Below are positions 44,240 to 53,530 of a stretch of DNA of 64,000 nucleotides, in pieces. Position numbers and translations under genes: made by a program. Position 1 is the first letter of the stretch. Each line of letters begins with the position of its first letter. The DNA lies in NCBI RefSeq assembly GCF_014204975.1, contig NZ_JACHMM010000001.1, positions 1,426,001 through 1,490,000 of the forward strand. Reading direction: 5' to 3'. This DNA is from Jiangella mangrovi (GTDB lineage Bacteria > Actinomycetota > Actinomycetes > Jiangellales > Jiangellaceae). Under the pieces are notes generated by a model. It was not told the DNA's origin. It worked only from the letters and a program-made list of their open reading frames with translations, and did not search any database.

Positions 44240-46474
44240 TCACACCATGCGTAGCGGGACTCCTGGGTTCCGCGCCTGCTCCAGGACCACCTGGGCCGGC
44301 AGCGGCTTGGACATGAAGAACCCCTGAGCGCGGTAACAGCCGAGGTCGAGCAGCGTGGTCACCGCTGCCGGATCTTCGACCCCCTCGGCCACCGTGGTCA
44401 GGTTGAACGCCTCGGCGAGGCGGACGATCGCGGCGACGATGGCGCGATCGCCGCTGCTCTCGGCGAGTGCCGAGACGAAGCTGCGGTCGATCTTGAGGAT
44501 GTCGACGGGGAGCTGCTTCAGCTGGGCCAGCGAGCTGTACCCGGTGCCGAAGTCGTCGATGGCGAGCGTGACGCCCAGGCCGCGCAGCCCGTTGAGCGTG
44601 GCCTGCACGTCGTCGATCTCGCGCATGACCGTGCTCTCGGTGATCTCGATGCCCAGCTCGGCCGGGGCCAGCCCGTACCGGCTCAGCAGCGTGGCGACGA
44701 ATCCCACGAAGTCGGCGCTGATGAGCTCGCCGGCGGAGATGTTGACCCGGACCAGCGGCGGCGGCACCGGCGAGGTGCGCTTCCATGCCGCCAGCTGCCG
44801 GCAGGCCTCTTCGAGCACCCAGCGGCCCAGCTCGGCGGAGAGGTTGATCTCTTCGACCACCGAGATGAAGGCGTCGGCCGCGAGCAGCCCGCGCTCGGGG
44901 TGCTGCCAGCGCACCAGCGCCTCGACGCCGGTCATGCGGCCGTCGCGGAGGTCGAACTCGGGCTGGAAGTACAGCCGCATCTCGTTGTTGGTGATGGCGG
45001 TGCGCAACCTCAGTTCGAGATCGGCCCGGACGAGCAGTTTTGATCGTAGGTCGTCGTTGAACACCACCACCGAGTCCCCACCGCGCTCCTTGGCCTCGAG
45101 CAGGGCGACGTCGGCGTTGCCGAGCAGCTCGTCGACCGTGCTGGGAATGTCCCCGTTGACCACGACGCCGATGCTGGCGCTGCGACTGATGGCGTGCCCG
45201 CCGACCTCGAGCGGCTCGGCGACGCGGTCGAGGATGCGCCGGGCGGCCCGCTCGGCCGCGGACGTGGACCCGATGTCGTGCAGCACGATGACGAACTCGT
45301 CGCCCGCGAGCCGCGCGACGACGTCGTGGGGGCGGACGGAGTCGCGCAGCCGGTGCGCCACCGCCTGGATGAAGTTGTCGCCGACGGTGTGCCCCAGGAC
45401 GTCGTTGACGGTCTTGAGGCGGTCCATGTCGGCGAAGAGGACGGCGAGCGGGGCGCGCGGGTCGGCGTCGAGCACTGCCTTGAGGTCCTCGACGAAGGCC
45501 CGGCGGTTCCACAGGCCGGTGAGCTCGTCGTGGTAGGCCTGGTGATGCAGGCTCTCCTCGGCTGCGACCCGGGCGTCGAGCTGCACCAGCAGCGAGGCGA
45601 TGGCCCGCAGCGCCCGCACCTCGGCTCGGGTCCAGATGCGGTCGCCGAAGTGGATGAGGCCCAGCACGCCCAGCGTGGTGTCGTCGTGGATCAGCGGCAC
45701 CATGGCCAGCGAGACCTCGGGTACGCCGGAACCGGCGCGGACCCGCTCCTGGTATTCGAACTGCCGGTCGGACGGCCGGTTGATGAACGGCTCGCGCTGG
45801 TCCTTGATCATCGCGAAGATCGTGTCCTCGGTGTCCCACGGGACGATGCCGAGCGGATCGGGATCGGGCACGTCGAGCCGCCGGGGCCACTCGTCGACCA
45901 GAACGCTGGCCTGCAGCTCGGGATCGTTGTGCCGGAGGAAGCAGGTGTCGGCGCCGAAGTAGCGGCCCAGTTCGCCGAGCACGCGGTACAGCGTCTCGGC
46001 GAGGTCGCGGGCGGTGACGCTCATGAGCTCGGCGGCGACGTAGGTGACCAGGGCATCGAGACGCCCGTGCTGGTCGGTGACCTCGCCCGCCTCCATGACC
46101 GCCGTGCACAGCTGCGCGGACACCGTCAGCAGGTCGCGGTCCTTCTGCGAGTACGACCGGCCGTCGAGGCGCACCAGGCAGACGCTGCCGCGGAAGTCGC
46201 GGTAGGCCACCCGGGCGGCCATGACGCCGGCGCCGGAGGCGGTGGTGTGCTCGATCAGCGCGCCCGTGGGATCGGCGGCGGCCTGCGCGGTGACGGCGCG
46301 GATGGCGTCGCGCATGACCGTGAGGTCCTTGCCCCGGACCCCGGCCCCGGCGGCGCTGCCCCACGACACCAGCGGCATGCCGCCCTCGACCGCCATCACG
46401 TCGGCGGAGATGGATTCGGTGGCCCGGGCCAGCGCTTCGAGAAGTGGCTGGATCGTCTCCGGGTCCATCTTCAT
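44240..46474 (-). CDS. GAF-GGDEF-EAL c-di-GMP enzyme (Rv1354c-like)
   Basis: A 744-aa soluble protein. Residues 1-150 form a GAF-like region, 160-310 a GAF domain, 325-480 a GGDEF domain (AGDEF active site, with RPHD five residues before it as an I-site), and 495-740 an EAL domain. The EAL catalytic set is intact: EALVRW, RVNISAGEL, IEITES, IDDFGTGYSS, LKIDRSFV and VAEGVE. It can therefore in principle make and break c-di-GMP. ATG overlaps the upstream MoeY-like stop (ATGA). Domain order and neighbour match Mycobacterium tuberculosis Rv1354c-Rv1355c. Confidence 0.95.
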   Translation of the reverse strand: MKMDPETIQPLLEALARATESISADVMAVEGGMPLVSWGSAAGAGVRGKDLTVMRDAIRAVTAQAAADPTGALIEHTTASGAGVMAARVAYRDFRGSVCLVRLDGRSYSQKDRDLLTVSAQLCTAVMEAGEVTDQHGRLDALVTYVAAELMSVTARDLAETLYRVLGELGRYFGADTCFLRHNDPELQASVLVDEWPRRLDVPDPDPLGIVPWDTEDTIFAMIKDQREPFINRPSDRQFEYQERVRAGSGVPEVSLAMVPLIHDDTTLGVLGLIHFGDRIWTRAEVRALRAIASLLVQLDARVAAEESLHHQAYHDELTGLWNRRAFVEDLKAVLDADPRAPLAVLFADMDRLKTVNDVLGHTVGDNFIQAVAHRLRDSVRPHDVVARLAGDEFVIVLHDIGSTSAAERAARRILDRVAEPLEVGGHAISRSASIGVVVNGDIPSTVDELLGNADVALLEAKERGGDSVVVFNDDLRSKLLVRADLELRLRTAITNNEMRLYFQPEFDLRDGRMTGVEALVRWQHPERGLLAADAFISVVEEINLSAELGRWVLEEACRQLAAWKRTSPVPPPLVRVNISAGELISADFVGFVATLLSRYGLAPAELGIEITESTVMREIDDVQATLNGLRGLGVTLAIDDFGTGYSSLAQLKQLPVDILKIDRSFVSALAESSGDRAIVAAIVRLAEAFNLTTVAEGVEDPAAVTTLLDLGCYRAQGFFMSKPLPAQVVLEQARNPGVPLRMV

Positions 46475-48603
46475 AGGTTGCTCCCTGCCTCCAGGGCGTC
46501 CCGGACGGTGCGGTCGGCAGACAGGCGGCGGCTCCGGACGCTGACGCTAGGAGCGTAGCCGATCCGCATCACCAGTGCGACGTACCTCTGCCCAAGACCG
46601 GCGATAGCGCCGAAATCATGGCGTAGGCGGCGAAGCCGGTCGGCGTACCGGGGCGACAGCTCCTCGTGGTCGGCGTCGTCGACGGCATAGATGAACACCG
46701 GCGACATCGGGTGCACGGCCAGGCCCAGCCGCTCGGCCTCGATCCACACGCGCTCGACCGCCTGGCCACCGCGCACGTAGTCGGCCGGCGCACCGGCGCC
46801 GATGGAGACGACGGCCAGCCCGGACGCGGCGTCGATGCGGTCGCGGGTGGACTCGCCCAGCGCCCGGCCGAGGTCCTGCTCGGCCAGCAGGGCCATGACG
46901 TCGGACCGGCGGGCGACGCTCAGCTTGGCGAGATCGGACCGGTCCAGTTCGAGGCTGCGGACGTCGATGCCCCAGTCGAGCGCGTCGATGCCGGGCCAGC
47001 GCAGCTCGCGCATCATCTCGCGGTGCAGGTGCTCGGTGAGGTAGCGCAGCCGGTCGGACTCGCCCAGCAGCTCGGCCAGCTCGTGCAGCCGGTCGCGGTC
47101 GGTGACGAGGTGCACCTCGGCCCCCTCGGCCGCGGCCGCGGCGCCCAGCACGGCCGCGGTCCCGGCGGGCAGCGGGGCGGGGTCGTGGAAGTGCCGGTTC
47201 GAGACCCGGCGCAGCATGCCCTCGTACATGGCGGCCAGCTCCGGGTCCGCCCCGTCGCCGAACCGCAGCCGGGCCACGTGGACGCCGTCGGCCCGGATCT
47301 CGACGTCGCCGAGCAGGCCGTGCCGGGCGGCCGCGACCCGCGCGTTGAACAGCGCCGCGCCGATGGCGACGTGGCTCCCGCGGAACGCGACGTCGAGCGT
47401 GGACGTCTGCGCCGGGTCGAGGTCGAGGTCGAGCCCGTCCGGGCGGAGCGTGAAGAGCCAGGGCTGGGTGTTGCCGCCCGACGGCGCCAGCCGTGCGGCG
47501 TGCACGACGGCGGCGCGCGGCTCGGCCGGCACCGGCTCGGGGTCGAGCACGAGGTCGACACCGAAGTCGGCGTCGGCGGCCGACGGCGGCTCGGCCAGTT
47601 TGGACAGCACGGCGTCGAGGTCGACCCGAGCGCGCCCGGACGGCAGTGCCACGCCCAGGCCGAGCTTGCGGACCGCCGCCGCCACCGACGCTCCGCCCAG
47701 GGTGATGTCGCCGCCCAGCTGCGGCCAGGTGTTCAGGCTCTCGTCGACCTCCGCCATCGAGGCGGCCATCGGCGCCGACAGCTCGGCCGGCTCCAGCACC
47801 CGCAGGACGTAGGGGACCTTGTCGTGCGTCGACAGGCCCATGAGGTCCTCCGGGCGCGCGTCGCCGAGCAGGCCGTGGAACAGCGGCCGGTCCGGCTCGA
47901 GGTCGTAGCGCTCGACGTCGAGCAGCCCGCGGTCGCTGGTCTCCATGACGAGCGGCAGCCGGTGCCGCCGGGCGCCGTCGCGCAGCGCCAGCTTCAGGTC
48001 GAACGAGTCGCACTCCTCGACGACGATGTCGAGGCCGTCCAGGAAGTCGTCGATCGACTCCAGGGTGAGTCCGGCCGGCTCGATGCTCACCTCGATGTAC
48101 GGGTCCAGCTCCGCGATGCGACGGGCCGCCACGACCGCCTTGTTCACGCCGAGGTCGAAGACCGTCGCCGGGATGCGATTGAGGTTGGACAGCTCGATCT
48201 CGTCGAAGTCGGCCAGCCGGATGTGCCCGCAGCTGCCCTCCAGCGCCAGCGTGTGCGCGATGGCGTGACCGACGCTGAGGCCGACGACGCCGACGGAGAG
48301 CCGGCGCAGCCGTTGCTGCTCGTCGGCGGTGATCTTGTTGCGGTTGCGGTCGGTGCGCAGCGTCTGGAACGCCTCGGGCCCGAGCAGGTGCACCAGGGTG
48401 CGCCGCCACGGGTAGAAGTACCACCGCGACGGCTCGCCGACGATCTCGGGCGAGGGCGCGGAGAGCAGCCGTGCGAGGTCACGGCGCTGCTGCTCGATCG
48501 TGTCGACGACCTGCACCGCCGGGTCCGCCCTGAGGCCGGCCAGCAGGTCGGGGTCGTCCACCAGTTCGGGGCGCCAGCCGGCCCCGTTCATGGCCTCGGT
48601 CAT
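46471..48603 (-). CDS. ThiF/MoeB-nitroreductase fusion protein (MoeY/Rv1355c-like)
   Basis: A 710-aa fusion. Residues about 90-330 are an E1-like adenylating domain (VGVVGLSVGHAIAHTLALEG, DFDEIELSNLNR and EECDSFDLK). Residues about 390-690 are a flavin nitroreductase-like domain (HAARLAPSGGNTQPW; RVSNRHFHDP). M. tuberculosis Rv1355c (annotated moeY) has the same two domains and length. The pairing suggests activation of a carboxylate followed by redox modification, but no substrate is known. ATG overlaps the upstream gene stop; the gene is coupled at both ends within a three-gene operon. Confidence 0.9.
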   Translation of the reverse strand: MTEAMNGAGWRPELVDDPDLLAGLRADPAVQVVDTIEQQRRDLARLLSAPSPEIVGEPSRWYFYPWRRTLVHLLGPEAFQTLRTDRNRNKITADEQQRLRRLSVGVVGLSVGHAIAHTLALEGSCGHIRLADFDEIELSNLNRIPATVFDLGVNKAVVAARRIAELDPYIEVSIEPAGLTLESIDDFLDGLDIVVEECDSFDLKLALRDGARRHRLPLVMETSDRGLLDVERYDLEPDRPLFHGLLGDARPEDLMGLSTHDKVPYVLRVLEPAELSAPMAASMAEVDESLNTWPQLGGDITLGGASVAAAVRKLGLGVALPSGRARVDLDAVLSKLAEPPSAADADFGVDLVLDPEPVPAEPRAAVVHAARLAPSGGNTQPWLFTLRPDGLDLDLDPAQTSTLDVAFRGSHVAIGAALFNARVAAARHGLLGDVEIRADGVHVARLRFGDGADPELAAMYEGMLRRVSNRHFHDPAPLPAGTAAVLGAAAAAEGAEVHLVTDRDRLHELAELLGESDRLRYLTEHLHREMMRELRWPGIDALDWGIDVRSLELDRSDLAKLSVARRSDVMALLAEQDLGRALGESTRDRIDAASGLAVVSIGAGAPADYVRGGQAVERVWIEAERLGLAVHPMSPVFIYAVDDADHEELSPRYADRLRRLRHDFGAIAGLGQRYVALVMRIGYAPSVSVRSRRLSADRTVRDALEAGSNL

Positions 48604-49331
48604 CGTGTGCCCGGAACCTCCGTGCCCGTCGCGGTGCGGAACTCGTTCTCGAACAGGCGGCGCTGTTCTTCGGTGGCGCGCCCCACCGCGGTCGCGGCGT
48701 CCCAGGTCAGCATCGTCGTGCGGTAGCGGTCGTCCGGGTAGCGGGCCGGGATGACGCCGGGCAGTTCCTCGGCGCCGGAGTTGGCCCAGCGCGACGCCGC
48801 GTGCTCCGCCGCCGAGCAGTAGGCGTAGCGCACCCCGAGCAGCCGCATGGCGTGCACGAACGCCCTCGACATGAGGTCGGCCAACACGGATTTGTGCTCC
48901 GACGTGGCGTCCACCCAGACGCCCTTGAGCTCGATGACGCCGTCCGGGAGCGCGGCCTCGATCCAGTGAGTGGCCAGGGTGGCCGACAGCGGCTCGCCGG
49001 CGAGCTCGCGGGGGGCATAGGCGTCGCGCACAGAGCGCAGCGGGCCGTTGACGTAGCAGCCGGCCCGGACCTTCCCGCCGTCGTCGGACGCGATGGCGAA
49101 CACCGGTGCACCGGACTCCTGAGTGGCCACGGGCAACGCCAGGGCGTGCTCGACGTGATGTCGCCGGTAGCTGGCCCGGGCGCCGTCGGCGTAGGCCATC
49201 CACTGATCGAAGCGCCGGTTCGGCATGGAGAAGCGCAGCGTCGTGCCCGACGCCTCGTCCCGGAACCCGTACAACTCACGGGTGGTGGTGTGTTGCGCGG
49301 CGCTGAGGGGGGTGCTGAGGGGGCTGGTCAT
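48600..49331 (-). CDS. GNAT-fold-like protein, first gene of the MoeY operon
   Basis: A 243-aa protein with the feel of an acyl-CoA N-acyltransferase fold (VFAIASDDGGKVRAGCYVNG; VIELKGVWVDATSEHKSVLADLMSRAFVHAMRLLGVRYAYCSA). No confident family name. The ATG at 49331 has only a weak ribosome site; an in-frame upstream start at 49373 exists. Stop overlaps the MoeY-like start as ATGA. It is preceded by a long hairpin-rich leader. It could load or use an acyl group on the product of the E1-nitroreductase. Confidence 0.6.
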   Translation of the reverse strand: MTSPLSTPLSAAQHTTTRELYGFRDEASGTTLRFSMPNRRFDQWMAYADGARASYRRHHVEHALALPVATQESGAPVFAIASDDGGKVRAGCYVNGPLRSVRDAYAPRELAGEPLSATLATHWIEAALPDGVIELKGVWVDATSEHKSVLADLMSRAFVHAMRLLGVRYAYCSAAEHAASRWANSGAEELPGVIPARYPDDRYRTTMLTWDAATAVGRATEEQRRLFENEFRTATGTEVPGTR

Positions 49332-49716
49332 GGCATCCACACCTGGCTTCACGGCTCCGTCCGGTCTGCTCAATCTGTACCGTATGCGCCGTTCATGCTA
49401 TTGAGGCCATAATGCCCGACTCGGCGCGAGGGCGACGCCGGAATGGAGAACGCGACGGGTGCCTGCCCCCCAACAGACCCGCCGCGTCTCCACCTTGCGG
49501 CAGCAGGACCAGCCCGCGGAAACCTGCCACCGCCCCGTTTGGGACGTGGTGCGAACGTCCCCGGACGCGCGCACCACGTCCCCTTATCGCGGTACGGCCT
49601 GTGCAGGGCGGAGGGCCGTACCGGTCCAAGGGTCACGGCTCGAGGCCGTGAGTCGCACCCACTCCTCGCTGCCAATCCAACGAATTGGACCAGAGCACCG
49701 AATTGCTAGTGCGGAT
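49332..49716 (-). ncRNA. Candidate structured 5' leader of the GNAT-MoeY-GGDEF/EAL operon
   Basis: About 385 nt between a predicted start site and the first gene. Four hairpins lie in a row: CCAAT/ATTGG (49672-49688), a 7-bp TCACGGC/GCCGTGA stem (49633-49651), a perfect 10-bp CGGTACGGCC stem with 14-nt loop (49590-49623), and a 13-bp GGGACGTGGTGCG stem that continues as an inner 5-bp stem (49541-49582). No riboswitch class that I know fits. No tRNA is present. No ORF with a ribosome site is seen in the leader. Confidence 0.45.
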
Positions 49717-50196: not shown

Positions 50197-51459
50197 ATGT
50201 CTGTTTCCCCGGCCTCCTACCGCGACGCGTTCGCGGCGACAGAGTTCCGGTGGCTGTGGAGCGCACACCTGCTCTCGGTCGTCGGTGACCAGCTCGCCCG
50301 CGTCGCGCTCACGTTGCTGGTGTTCGAGCGGACGGCGTCCGCCGGGCTGGCCGCGCTCACCTACGCGCTGACCTACCTGCCCGATCTCGTCGGCGGCGCC
50401 GCGCTGGCCGGGCTCGCCGACCGCTTCTCCCGCCGCGACGTCATGGTGGTCACCGACCTCGCCCGGGCCGCGCTGGTGGCGGTCATGGCCATCCCCGGGG
50501 TCCCACTGGCCGGGCAGATGGCGCTGCTGGTCGTGGTGCAGCTGCTGACGGCGCCGTTCTCGGCCGCACGGCAGGCGGCGCTGCCGGACATCCTGAGCGG
50601 CGACCGCCTCACCCTGGGCCTCGGCATCTTCTCGATGACATACCAGGTGGCGCTGGTCGTGGGGTTCGGCGCGGGCGCTGCCCTCGTGGCCCAGCTGGGC
50701 GTGTCCACGGCGCTGCTGATCAACGCGGCCACGTTCGCGGTGTCGGCGCTGATCATCGCCCGCGGCGTCGGGCCGCACCACCCCGTCGCCCCGGTCACCG
50801 ACCCCCGCGCCACCGGTGCCGGGCAGTGGGCGACCGTCAGGGCAGGGTGGCGGGTCGTGGCCCGCGACCCGCGGCTGCTCACGCTGCTCGCCATCGCCTG
50901 CTGCTCGGGGTTCTACGTCGTGCCCGAAGGTCTCGCGGTGCCGTACGCCGCCGAGCTCGACGCCGGCCCGGGCGCCGTCGGCTGGCTGCTGGTGGCGAAC
51001 CCCGTCGGCACCGTCATCGGGATGCTGCTGCTGCGCCGGGTCCGGCCGGACCGCCGGCTGGCGCTCGTCGGCCCGCTCGCGGTGGCCAGCAGCCTGGTGC
51101 TGGTGCCCACGGGCTGGCTGCCCGGCCTCGCGGTCACGGTCGTGCTGTGGACCCTCAGCGGGGCGTGCTCCGCCCACGACATGGTGGTCCAGGCCACCTA
51201 CGTCGAGTCCGTCCCCGCGCACCGCCGCGGTCAGGCGGTCGGGCTCGCCATCGCCGCCCTCCGAGCGGCACAGGGTCTGGCCATCGTCGCCGCGGGCGTC
51301 CTGGCCCAGCTGCTGTCGCCGTCGACGATCATCCTCGTCGCGGCGGTGCTGGGTGTTCTCGCGGCCGCGGCCGCATGGCATCGGTGGTCACGACTGGCCC
51401 CGCCCCGCGCCCATCCACCACCCCAGGGCGAGGCCGATGACATCACTGGCCGGCCATGA
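50197..51459 (+). CDS. MFS transporter
   Basis: A 420-aa twelve-helix transporter of the MFS_3/enterobactin-exporter-like group (EFRWLWSAHLLSVVGDQLARVALTLLVFERT near the N-terminus; ALADRFSRRDVMVVTDLARA loop region). Probably an exporter of small molecules or peptides. It ends at 51459, only 32 bp from the last mini-ORF of the convergent heptapeptide array. Whether it exports the array product is an untested idea. Confidence 0.88.
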   Translation: MSVSPASYRDAFAATEFRWLWSAHLLSVVGDQLARVALTLLVFERTASAGLAALTYALTYLPDLVGGAALAGLADRFSRRDVMVVTDLARAALVAVMAIPGVPLAGQMALLVVVQLLTAPFSAARQAALPDILSGDRLTLGLGIFSMTYQVALVVGFGAGAALVAQLGVSTALLINAATFAVSALIIARGVGPHHPVAPVTDPRATGAGQWATVRAGWRVVARDPRLLTLLAIACCSGFYVVPEGLAVPYAAELDAGPGAVGWLLVANPVGTVIGMLLLRRVRPDRRLALVGPLAVASSLVLVPTGWLPGLAVTVVLWTLSGACSAHDMVVQATYVESVPAHRRGQAVGLAIAALRAAQGLAIVAAGVLAQLLSPSTIILVAAVLGVLAAAAAWHRWSRLAPPRAHPPPQGEADDITGRP

Positions 51460-51490
51460 ACGACCGGCGTCTCCATGTGCTGCTCGGACC

Positions 51491-51514
51491 TCAGGTCCAG
51501 GTGTTGTCGCGCAT
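51491..51514 (-). CDS. Heptapeptide MRDNTWT, last copy in transcription order
   Basis: Encodes MRDNTWT with Thr7 as ACC. Ribosome site GGAGGGAG, about 7-9 nt upstream of the ATG at 51514. The array ends here, 32 bp from the convergent MFS stop. No terminator hairpin is obvious. Confidence 0.75.
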   Translation of the reverse strand: MRDNTWT

Positions 51515-51559
51515 CGCCGTGCTCCCTCCGCCTCGTCGCCGTCTCACTGCCGCTGCCGG

Positions 51560-51583
51560 TCACGTCCAGGTGTTGTCGCGCAT
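51560..51583 (-). CDS. Heptapeptide MRDNTWT, sixth copy
   Basis: Encodes MRDNTWT with Thr7 as ACG. Ribosome site AGAGGAG, 6 nt upstream of the ATG at 51583. Start-to-start distance to the next copy is 69 bp. Confidence 0.75.
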   Translation of the reverse strand: MRDNTWT

Positions 51584-51631
51584 CGCTCGCTCCTCTCCGT
51601 GCGCCCCCGTGCCGTCATGGATCGCCGTCTC

Positions 51632-51655
51632 TCACGTCCAGGTGTTGTCACGCAT
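51632..51655 (-). CDS. Heptapeptide MRDNTWT, fifth copy
   Basis: Encodes MRDNTWT with Arg2 as CGT (the only copy) and Thr7 as ACG. Ribosome site AGAGGAG, 6 nt upstream. Both changes are silent, which argues that the peptide is what is conserved. Confidence 0.75.
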   Translation of the reverse strand: MRDNTWT

Positions 51656-51697
51656 GTCCCGCTCCTCTCACTGCGATGGGTCCACGTCCGCTCCGAC

Positions 51698-51721
51698 TCA
51701 GGTCCAGGTGTTGTCGCGCAT
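51698..51721 (-). CDS. Heptapeptide MRDNTWT, fourth copy
   Basis: Encodes MRDNTWT with Thr7 as ACC. Ribosome site GGAAGGAG, 7 nt upstream of the ATG at 51721. Confidence 0.75.
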   Translation of the reverse strand: MRDNTWT

Positions 51722-51769
51722 GGCCGGTCTCCTTCCTCCTCGTTCCGGGTCCGCCTGGTGCGGGTCGGC

Positions 51770-51793
51770 TCAGGTCCAGGTGTTGTCGCGCAT
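51770..51793 (-). CDS. Heptapeptide MRDNTWT, third copy
   Basis: Encodes MRDNTWT with Thr7 as ACC. Ribosome site GGAAGGAG, 7 nt upstream. The bases between ribosome site and ATG (ACGTGCC) are identical to the neighbouring copy at 51868, suggesting a recent duplication. Confidence 0.75.
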   Translation of the reverse strand: MRDNTWT

Positions 51794-51844
51794 GGCACGT
51801 CTCCTTCCGGGTAGCCGTGGTCGTGGTGGCTGCGGCCGGGCCGC

Positions 51845-51868
51845 TCAGGTCCAGGTGTTGTCGCGCAT
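51845..51868 (-). CDS. Heptapeptide MRDNTWT, second copy
   Basis: Encodes MRDNTWT with Thr7 as ACC. Ribosome site GGAAGGAG, then ACGTGCC, then the ATG at 51868, identical to the next copy. Confidence 0.75.
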   Translation of the reverse strand: MRDNTWT

Positions 51869-51913
51869 GGCACGTCTCCTTCCGCGTGGTCGTTGTCTCT
51901 GCGGTACCGACGA

Positions 51914-51994
51914 TCACGTCCAGGTGTTGTCGCGCATGAACCTCACCTCCTCGCGGGGCGGGAGGGCAGCTTTCGGCAGCGCGCCGTCGCACAT
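51914..51994 (-). CDS. First mini-ORF: heptapeptide copy with optional 19-residue N-terminal extension
   Basis: The first copy (51914-51937, Thr7 as ACG) has its own ribosome site GAGGAGGT, 7 nt upstream of the ATG at 51937. In frame, an ATG at 51994 with an even stronger site (AAGGAGG, 8 nt) opens MCDGALPKAAL and onward through REEVRF into MRDNTWT, 26 aa in all. The first codons (ATG-TGC-GAC) resemble ATG-CGC-GAC of the repeat, so the extension may be a decayed eighth copy that lost its stop. Either start could be used. Confidence 0.65.
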   Translation of the reverse strand: MCDGALPKAALPPREEVRFMRDNTWT

Positions 51995-52156
51995 CGCCCG
52001 GCCCTCCTTCCAAGGCGTCGCGTTCGCGTCGAGAGTGCGGCAAACGCCCGTATTTGTGCACTCATTGTCGCCGACCCGGCAGCGACAGAACGTCCGGAAT
52101 TCAGCTACTATGTGCCCACCCCGCATGACCCCGGTGAACTGCGCAGGTGAAAGCGA

Positions 52157-53530
52157 GTGCACGGCTTGATACGGCGAGCGCGAAACGAGGTCGCGGGCTG
52201 GGCGCTCTGGCAGGCGCCGGCACCCGTGCGCATCCTCGTGCTCCTCGCGTGCGCCGTGGGCATCGGAACCAGCATCGGCACCGCGTTCCTGTTCCCCGTC
52301 ACCGGTACGGACCTCACCCGCTTCGCCGTCCTCGCGGTCTGCGCGGTCATCGCCATCGAGCTCACCCGCCACATCGAGCGGCGCCGGGTCTACGGGCACG
52401 CCAGCTCGGTCGCCTACATCGACACCAAGGCGGTCTGGAGCTTCGCCGCGGTCATCGTCCTGCCGCCCGTCTTCGCCACGCTCATGGTGGTCCTGACCTA
52501 CCTGCACTCGTGGACCCGCGTGCAGCACGAGCGGCCCGGCGGCCTGGTCTACCGGTGGATGTTCTCCGGTGCCACGGTGCTGGTCGGCACCCAGGCGGCG
52601 GTCGCCGTGCTGGCGCTCGGCATGCACGACTACCCCGGCGCACCGGCCACGGCGGGCCTCGCCGGCCTCACCGACCTCGGCATCATCGTGCTGGCGGCCA
52701 CGCTGCGGTGGGCCATCAACGTCGGGCTGATCATGGCCGCCATCGCGCTCAGCAAGCCCAACATCCAGGCCCGCGAGCTGTTCTCGAACTTCGGCGAGCA
52801 GATGCTCGAGGCCGGTGCCATGGGGCTCGGGCTGGTCGCGGCGGCCATCGTGGTGGCCAACCCGTTCGTCATGCCGGGCATCGTCATCGCCATGGTGGCG
52901 CTGCACCGCGGCATCCTGGTCAACCAGTACCAGCAGGCCTCGCGCACTGACGCCAAGACGGGGCTGTCCACGGCCGGCTGGTGGCACGACTTCGCCGACC
53001 AGGCGCTCGTCCGCGCCCGCGACCACGGCACCACGCTGGGCCTGCTCATCGTCGACCTCGACCACTTCAAGCGGCTCAACGACACCTTCGGGCACCCGCA
53101 CGGCGACCGCGTCCTCAAGGCGGTGGCCGAAGAGCTCATCGCCGAGATCCGCAACGAGGACGCCTGCGGCCGGTGGGGCGGCGAGGAGTTCGTGGTCGTG
53201 CTGCCCGACGTCGGCGACCGGCACAACCTGCGCAACGTGGCCGAGCGCATCCGCCGGCGCATCCAGGCCATCGTGGTCGAGCCGCCCTCGCACCTCGCCC
53301 AGGCCGGCGACGCCACCGTCACGGCCTCGGTCGGCGGCGCCGTCTTCCCGTCGCCCGCCATCTCCAGTCTCGACGAGCTGCTGCTGGCCGCCGACACCGC
53401 GCTCTACGCGGCCAAGAACGCCGGGCGCAACACCGTCCGGCTCAGCGGCGCCGACCTGCCCGCCGGCCCGGCCGTCCCCGACCAGCCGCAGCTGCCGCAG
53501 CAGGCCGAGCCTCCGCAAGCCTCGGCCTGA
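52157..53530 (+). CDS. Membrane-bound diguanylate cyclase (GGDEF)
   Basis: A 457-aa protein. About six transmembrane helices (residues 25-250) form a MASE-like sensor; the GGDEF domain (about 265-430) has the active site GGEEF and the inhibitory I-site RNED five residues before it. There is no EAL domain, so it should synthesise c-di-GMP with product feedback. GTG at 52157 has AGGTGA about 7 nt upstream. TACTAT at 52106-52111 may be its -10 element. Divergent from the heptapeptide array across about 160 bp. Confidence 0.93.
   Translation: MHGLIRRARNEVAGWALWQAPAPVRILVLLACAVGIGTSIGTAFLFPVTGTDLTRFAVLAVCAVIAIELTRHIERRRVYGHASSVAYIDTKAVWSFAAVIVLPPVFATLMVVLTYLHSWTRVQHERPGGLVYRWMFSGATVLVGTQAAVAVLALGMHDYPGAPATAGLAGLTDLGIIVLAATLRWAINVGLIMAAIALSKPNIQARELFSNFGEQMLEAGAMGLGLVAAAIVVANPFVMPGIVIAMVALHRGILVNQYQQASRTDAKTGLSTAGWWHDFADQALVRARDHGTTLGLLIVDLDHFKRLNDTFGHPHGDRVLKAVAEELIAEIRNEDACGRWGGEEFVVVLPDVGDRHNLRNVAERIRRRIQAIVVEPPSHLAQAGDATVTASVGGAVFPSPAISSLDELLLAADTALYAAKNAGRNTVRLSGADLPAGPAVPDQPQLPQQAEPPQASA

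Follow-up and report, generated by a model that had tools for sequence, protein, structure and literature searches.

Why would a chromosome carry one seven-codon gene seven times in a row? The question is raised by a 64,000-nucleotide stretch of Jiangella mangrovi (assembly GCF_014204975.1, contig NZ_JACHMM010000001.1, positions 1,426,001 to 1,490,000; here called the window), whose minus strand holds seven copies of the open reading frame (ORF) ATG CGY GAC AAC ACC TGG ACS TGA, each encoding the heptapeptide MRDNTWT. Judged from sequence comparison, such mini-genes are selected, self-standing units that keep synteny with a gene for a membrane diguanylate cyclase, frequently adjoin a gene of the major facilitator superfamily (MFS), and have spread as cassettes. 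The whole looks like an undescribed peptide-signalling system in soil actinobacteria. Our favoured explanation, held with evenly balanced confidence, is that the array encodes a leaderless and probably formylated peptide signal that the MFS protein would export and the cyclase would sense.

Selection on the translated peptide

A degenerate DNA pattern for MRDNTWT has seven matches in the 7.16-Mb genome, all in the window array, and its reversed control has none; this genome-wide search bore out the original prediction, made from the sequence alone, of seven identical mini-genes on the minus strand. Its further particulars held as well: start-to-start spacings measure 66 to 75 bp, five to seven contiguous bases of AAGGAGGT form a Shine-Dalgarno (SD) site upstream of each copy, and all variation within the seven ORFs is silent. 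The DNA between copies, described as unrelated, is so in the window but near-identical in some relatives (L008, and L060 with spacing 83-85).

Across 413 copies from many arrays, there are 203 codon differences from the array consensus, of which 192 are synonymous (expectation 0.19), a contrast for which a binomial P is only indicative because the copies are not independent. Adjacent ORFs are 94% identical and spacers 67%, and serine codons change between AGC and TCN. In a tally of 371 mini-ORFs (loci L062, L078, L142, L157 and L159 excluded, one spurious 18-residue ORF of L218 included), an SD of at least four bases precedes 368, the starts are ATG (291) or GTG (80), the stops TGA (352), TAA (14) or TAG (5), and 361 encode six to eight residues. 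Synonymous differences together with SD sites before 368 of 371 therefore mark the peptide as the target, and it is near certain from these comparisons that selection acts on the translated peptide. The proposal first made from the seven window copies, that repeated translation of a single short peptide is selected for, is thus very strongly supported across genera. A repeat kept with its reading frame broken, an outcome raised at the outset as telling against translation, was met once, at L239, where MRSRDW has decayed to MRSRDR.

Repeated DNA as such (repeats serving binding or recombination, or the antisense strand of a repeat protein gene) would account for one feature, namely that all six window spacings are multiples of three, leaving a plus-strand frame (51456-52169) open across the array. 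All spacings are likewise multiples of three in Actinokineospora (L073, L082, L101), where an uninterrupted antisense frame crosses the array and joins the cyclase gene. Many other arrays, however, have spacings in different phases, and therefore no long frame accounts for the repeat; the silent changes become amino acid changes in the open Actinokineospora frame, and the 192 synonymous differences among 203 make this account very unlikely, to the point that we give it next to no weight. A plus-strand repeat protein (the ORF 51456-52169, with QVQVLSR repeats) was rejected for the same reason, since the spacings in relatives break that frame.

Spread and diversity of the arrays

By sequence comparison, the MRDNTWT case belongs to a much wider phenomenon, arrays of 2 to 20 self-standing genes of six to eight codons in relatives. 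Comparing copy number and neighbours among them, as originally proposed, returned this range together with a conserved cyclase and a frequent MFS gene. The array consensus is MRxxxW(x)stop, and the peptides are lineage specific (MRDNNWN, MRDTTWS, MRGNSWD, MRDNNWTR, MRNRAW, MRSRDW, MRNHSWT). Within the family of the window, Jiangellaceae, the MRDNTWT pattern occurs in 6 of 22 genomes, the window's included, with four to eight copies each. Other peptides stand beside most family cyclases (MRDSNWT, MRDTNWNG, MRDNTWS, MRDNNWN, MRDVNWT, MRDTTWS, MRDNKWSR, MRDNHWTP); the array of L196 combines 12 copies of MRDTTWS with one MRDTTWR, and paralogous cassettes encode MRGNSWD or MRANSWD. A DNA pattern spanning three units, with codons 3-5 left free, matched 15 of the 22 genomes in the family and, elsewhere in the class, 1 of 371; its reversed control matched 2 of the 393.

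A scan restricted to a single genome for each species, with at least 119 rows, gives a lower bound for the distribution, and 28 of its arrays were accepted by eye. Among the matches listed are Amycolatopsis arrays of 12 to 20 MRDNNWTR copies with variants, Pseudonocardia arrays of MRNRAW, MRNHSWT and MRNRTWI, MRSRDW in Actinokineospora, MREHNWS in Actinocatenispora, and two arrays in one Frankiales metagenome-assembled genome (MAG). A Streptosporangium array (L114, 1737-2264) comprises eight different peptides, from MRTTDWL to MRGSDWH, and is flanked by a TPR protein gene and a co-directional MFS gene. Actinomadura arrays encode MRTTPW, MRTPPW or MRTKPW (L062, L078, L142) and are flanked by an MFS gene on one side and a weakly encapsulin-like gene on the other, both Pfam matches coming from L062. 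In Actinokineospora (L073, L082, L101), five-residue MSRDW copies are interspersed in the arrays. Doubled units within one ORF occur at L205 (6885-7265; MRDTNWVLRDTNWSW, four copies) and L279 (MREIRWTREIRWTRA). Many matches beyond Actinobacteria (e.g., L066, L134, L157, L159) resemble repeats within coding sequence or have no good SD site and were excluded; they include repeated MRPERWD in a Chitinophaga MAG (L159, 1251-1790), MRVERWV in a Schlesneria MAG (L157, 244-527) and MRAERWPVLLGRD in a further MAG (L134), the first two with TAG stops and weak SD sites.

A membrane diguanylate cyclase as partner

Two partner genes are absent from the original prediction, a convergent MFS gene and a divergent gene for a membrane diguanylate cyclase (Table 1). 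The window cyclase has a helix at residues 22-42, a membrane domain at about 47-236 that models as S-component-like and then a GGDEF domain (PF00990, 8e-38) with a GGEEF motif and an RxxD I-site, so that the partner shares with diguanylate cyclases an intact GG[DE]EF. GGEEF is present in 40 of 43 proteins of this family (C1); of the remaining three, two are truncated at locus ends and one is a partial second ORF (L209). The N-terminal part of the cyclase occurs in 18 of the 22 Jiangellaceae genomes and arrays adjoin most of these; more generally, the mini-genes nearly always stand divergent from a member of C1.

The association extends to distant homologs. A profile of the membrane domain, built from 20 cassettes and searched in 393 genomes, matched 64, of which 46 lie outside the family with 54 hits; 52 of these were examined (all but G123 and G341). 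Under a strict filter (SD site, six to nine residues, Trp within the last three), a mini-ORF lies near 26 of the 52 on the divergent strand and near none on the other, shuffles leading one to expect 0.35. Looser inspection adds MRNREY (two copies), MREIRWTREIRWTRA, MRDTQWTKR, MRNTHWTRA, MFDRDF and the decayed MRSRDR; by either approach, 20 of the 52 loci have no recognisable mini-gene. Because many of these remote mini-genes are single copy (MLRGVTWI, MSSGVQWV), the arrays look, on sequence grounds, like amplifications of one ancestral mini-gene. In the reverse direction, the DNA pattern alone matched 15 of 249 genomes in a Pseudonocardiaceae-like family (reversed control, 1), and at the 15 loci found, a cyclase gene stands divergent in 13 and an MFS gene is present in 10 (one weak, E 1e-7). 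Of the two loci without a cyclase, one is an MRNHSWT array (the L060 cyclase lies just beyond a search range of this kind) and the other has an MFS gene. A cyclase also lies beside 20 of the 28 accepted arrays of the species scan; the eight without one weigh against a cyclase-sensed signal, and no GGDEF gene was called in the Actinomadura loci L062, L078 and L142, whose arrays adjoin an MFS gene. At two loci a GGDEF-EAL gene stands in place of the usual divergent cyclase, co-directional at L138 (4548-5352; 12 copies of MREHNWS and one MRERHWT) and convergent at L049 (256-453; three copies of MRGHAWG).

On a tree of 63 cyclases, with SH-aLRT (Shimodaira-Hasegawa-like approximate likelihood-ratio test) support only, the peptides track the cyclase clades, also between paralogues within one genome. 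G030 carries five paralogous cyclase genes, with MRSVQWA, MRGNNWT, MRGVKWA, MRGVNWV and MRGADWA/C. Three genera are represented in the MRGNSWD/MRANSWD clade (support 84), most of whose genomes carry an MRDxxW cassette as well. The Amycolatopsis cyclases (MRDNNWTR) are nested among those of Jiangellaceae (group of 34 rows, support 100). Their subgroup (support 93) includes a protein with an MRDNNWT mini-gene and is separate from Pseudonocardia and Actinokineospora; this nesting suggests that the cassette was transferred as a unit.

In structural models, the membrane domain resembles the S-component of energy-coupling factor (ECF) transporters, a ligand-binding fold. The membrane part has no Pfam match and belongs to a sequence family without a name; Foldseek returned nothing for this domain at E 0.001 and, for the full cyclase, GGDEF proteins throughout the 50 matches listed. 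According to excerpts of PMC11109136, receptors of the 5TMR/S-component fold have an extra N-terminal helix before an S-component-like domain, and fusions to GGDEF are known. The modelled architecture here would match in both respects, and it differs in that its membrane part escapes Pfam and a candidate ligand gene lies next door.

Should the peptide instead stay in the cell and directly regulate the cyclase or cyclic di-GMP (c-di-GMP), with no export, the constancy of the cyclase as partner would follow, as would the lack of an adjoining MFS gene in most single-copy cassettes. We think this rather unlikely: free heptapeptides are generally expected to be short-lived in the cytoplasm, the arrays accompany a transporter, and the modelled membrane domain resembles outward-facing binding proteins.

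Transporter, attenuation and precursor readings

An MFS gene (family C0), a candidate peptide exporter, adjoins 42 of 66 cassettes, convergent in 34 and co-directional in 8. Median copy number is 5.5 in cassettes with the gene versus 1 in the 20 MFS-less cassettes with over 1.2 kb of searchable sequence (Mann-Whitney p 1e-8, uncorrected for kinship). Among 148 neighbours at 28 loci (two of 150 proteins omitted for size), MFS proteins number 22 and every other family at most four, within the 25 of 144 families listed. The window MFS protein has no relatives in the PDB by sequence at E 0.001.

The orientation of the MFS gene bears on the idea that the array is a translation or RNA device, acting by stalling, by sensing or sequestering charged tRNA-Trp, by attenuation or as a translated small regulatory RNA. 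Almost every copy has a Trp codon close to its stop, which is TGA in 352 of 371; the downstream MFS gene is co-directional in eight cassettes, as is the GGDEF-EAL gene at L138; and a gene for tryptophanyl-tRNA synthetase (TrpRS) at four loci, co-directional in three from Pseudonocardia, counts a little. A leader-peptide attenuator would precede a gene on the same strand, whereas the window has none directly 3' of the array: its 3' neighbour is the convergent MFS gene, and the minus strand has no further gene until 49373, in agreement with the original report of no co-directional gene within 2 kb. The same convergence in 34 of the 42 MFS-bearing cassettes leaves these with no co-directional gene to control and upholds the earlier judgement that attenuation is unlikely. 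Tyr moreover takes the place of Trp in MRNREY (twice, L274), as does Phe in MFDRDF (L240), codon choice drifts while the residues stay constant, and no Rfam family scored above threshold in the window. Attenuation, RNA and tRNA-sink readings thus fit less well than a signal, and a device of this kind is in our estimate quite improbable. Among the roles first listed, we retain the signal; stalling and a tRNA sink are less well supported because a few cassettes have Tyr or Phe where Trp is otherwise conserved and because the peptide changes with the cyclase clade.

Alternatively, the peptide could give rise by modification to a small natural product, a minimal ribosomally synthesized and post-translationally modified peptide (RiPP) that the MFS protein exports and whose timing the cyclase controls. 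Some Trojan-horse antibiotics have self-immunity synthetases, with which a TrpRS gene near some arrays could be compared, and both the adjoining MFS genes and a ThiF-domain protein near the Jiangella array would suit such a product. Ultra-short precursor genes are also known. Excerpts of PMC6495379 describe microcin C as the product of a seven-codon stand-alone gene (MccA, MRTGNAN), reiteratively translated into a leaderless formyl-Met heptapeptide and accompanied by an export pump gene. Biarylitides, in source excerpts, derive from five-residue precursors cross-linked by a dedicated P450, and their minimal gene bytA is sometimes multicopy, with up to six copies in Lysinibacillus (excerpt of PMC13417212). 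The present genes resemble the former in being tiny MR-peptide genes (six to eight residues in 361 of 371) beside a transporter gene in 42 of 66 cassettes, with putative export, and the latter in their minimal and repeated form.

There are also differences. Microcin C has a single precursor gene, whereas the arrays here reach 20 copies and have a cyclase partner; its C-terminal Asn is adenylated by MccB, whereas the present peptides end in T, S, N, D, R, W, I, A and others, and no MccB-type gene is common to the genera. A ThiF-domain gene (46471-48603) does qualify the original statement that the window holds no RiPP enzyme, but it is found in Jiangella cassettes only, about 3 kb off the array. 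Biarylitide precursors have five residues, a length met here only in the Actinokineospora MSRDW copies. Neither ThiF nor P450 is among the 25 commonest of the 144 neighbour families, a listing outside which rarer families fall, nor is P450 among the 25 commonest of 93 Pfam families in 58 window proteins, rarer ones again lying outside the tally. Within the neighbour families listed, no enzyme family is widely common beside the arrays, and most peptides contain a single aromatic residue.

As for TrpRS, trpS genes lie within about 5 kb of four arrays, three of Pseudonocardia, where they are co-directional with the array, and one of Jiangellaceae (L069, 2593-3609; L092, 5560-6588; L154; L220, 9869-10930). 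Six genomes searched for trpS gave a single copy in three Pseudonocardia-like genomes, no match in the fourth and two copies in Jiangellaceae. The TrpRS of L220 is the second of its genome (38% identical), and both trpS genes of the window genome are far from the array. Because it is the sole copy in three genomes, the Pseudonocardia TrpRS is probably a housekeeping neighbour. On balance we regard a modified product as unlikely.

Other features of the locus

Copy 1 of the array is also the end of a 26-codon ORF, whose start and frame are kept, on reading by eye, in three close relatives; the original prediction had placed the array end at 51994, which is the start of this ORF. Because a generic scan for sigma-70 promoters and terminators gave no match, the candidate -10 elements in the conserved block between array and cyclase gene are graded tentative. 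An Rfam search of the window gave one match, below threshold, and a known RNA element at the array was rejected.

Table 1. Array, partner genes and candidate control elements, in window coordinates
Feature	Position	Strand	Basis
Mini-gene copy 1 (first on minus strand), MRDNTWT	51914-51937	-	Sequence, pattern match
Mini-gene copy 2, MRDNTWT	51845-51868	-	Pattern match
Mini-gene copy 3, MRDNTWT	51770-51793	-	Pattern match
Mini-gene copy 4, MRDNTWT	51698-51721	-	Pattern match
Mini-gene copy 5, MRDNTWT (Arg codon CGT)	51632-51655	-	Pattern match
Mini-gene copy 6, MRDNTWT	51560-51583	-	Pattern match
Mini-gene copy 7 (last), MRDNTWT	51491-51514	-	Pattern match
26-codon ORF MCDGALPKAALPPREEVRFMRDNTWT (MCDGALPKAALPPREEVRF-MRDNTWT; MCDGA...MRDNTWT), own SD, in frame with and ending in copy 1	51914-51994	-	
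Conserved block between array and cyclase gene (tentative)	52064-52114	both	Alignment of cassettes
GACAAT, candidate -10 of array (tentative)	52064-52069	-	Exact in 13 of 16 aligned cassettes
TACTATGTG, candidate -10 of cyclase gene (tentative)	52106-52114	+	Cassette alignment
Membrane diguanylate cyclase (family C1), divergent from array	52157-53530	+	Pfam, cassette comparison
MFS transporter (family C0), convergent with array, candidate peptide exporter	50197-51459	+	

Further along the window, a block at 44240-49373 comprises genes for a GGDEF-EAL protein, a ThiF-nitroreductase and an unassigned 257-residue protein, and adjoins the array in Jiangella only. An anti-phage role was rejected: PADLOC gave no match for the cyclase, the MFS protein or the 257-residue protein, and only weak E1-E2 hits for the ThiF protein. 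In Actinokineospora, a BTAD/NB-ARC/TPR regulator gene (L082, 1-2997) adjoins the MFS gene of the cassette.

A candidate peptide signal read into c-di-GMP

Under the explanation that we favour, a self-sensed signal, the array would be a dosage device for one tiny peptide. A single ribosome can repeatedly translate an ORF of two to eight codons (excerpts of PMC6495379), and short ORFs in a tandem array would thus permit reiterative translation and multiply the yield per transcript. Synthesised at its final size, the peptide would need no protease and would probably retain its formyl group; the MFS pump would export it, and the cyclase would bind it and alter c-di-GMP. Such a signal could report on the population or the hypha, with peptide-receptor pairs diverging by lineage and by paralogue. 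That this holds as a widespread actinobacterial system, in which tandem genes of six to eight codons yield lineage-specific formyl peptides that are exported by MFS proteins and read into c-di-GMP by cyclases with a vitamin-transporter-like domain, we put forward tentatively, a little short of an even judgement.

In the pheromone systems of Firmicutes (Agr, Phr, SHP), peptides arise by cleavage of longer precursors and target kinases, Rap or Rgg proteins. The present cassettes share with them a short lineage-specific peptide beside a putative receptor gene, as the co-segregation of peptide and cyclase suggests, and differ in synthesis at final size and in having a diguanylate cyclase as partner. 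A search of open-access PMC papers gave none for MRDNTWT, and among the matches listed, titles and abstract openings gave nothing on tandem short-ORF, cyclase or pheromone systems of this kind in actinobacteria.

Genes this short escape ordinary gene calling, yet they recur in several actinobacterial families under strict selection. In Streptomyces, c-di-GMP controls development. Should the peptide prove to be the ligand of the cyclase, a ribosomal peptide signal would feed directly into the c-di-GMP of filamentous actinobacteria, and an orphan family of membrane cyclases would gain a named candidate ligand, obtainable as a synthetic heptapeptide.
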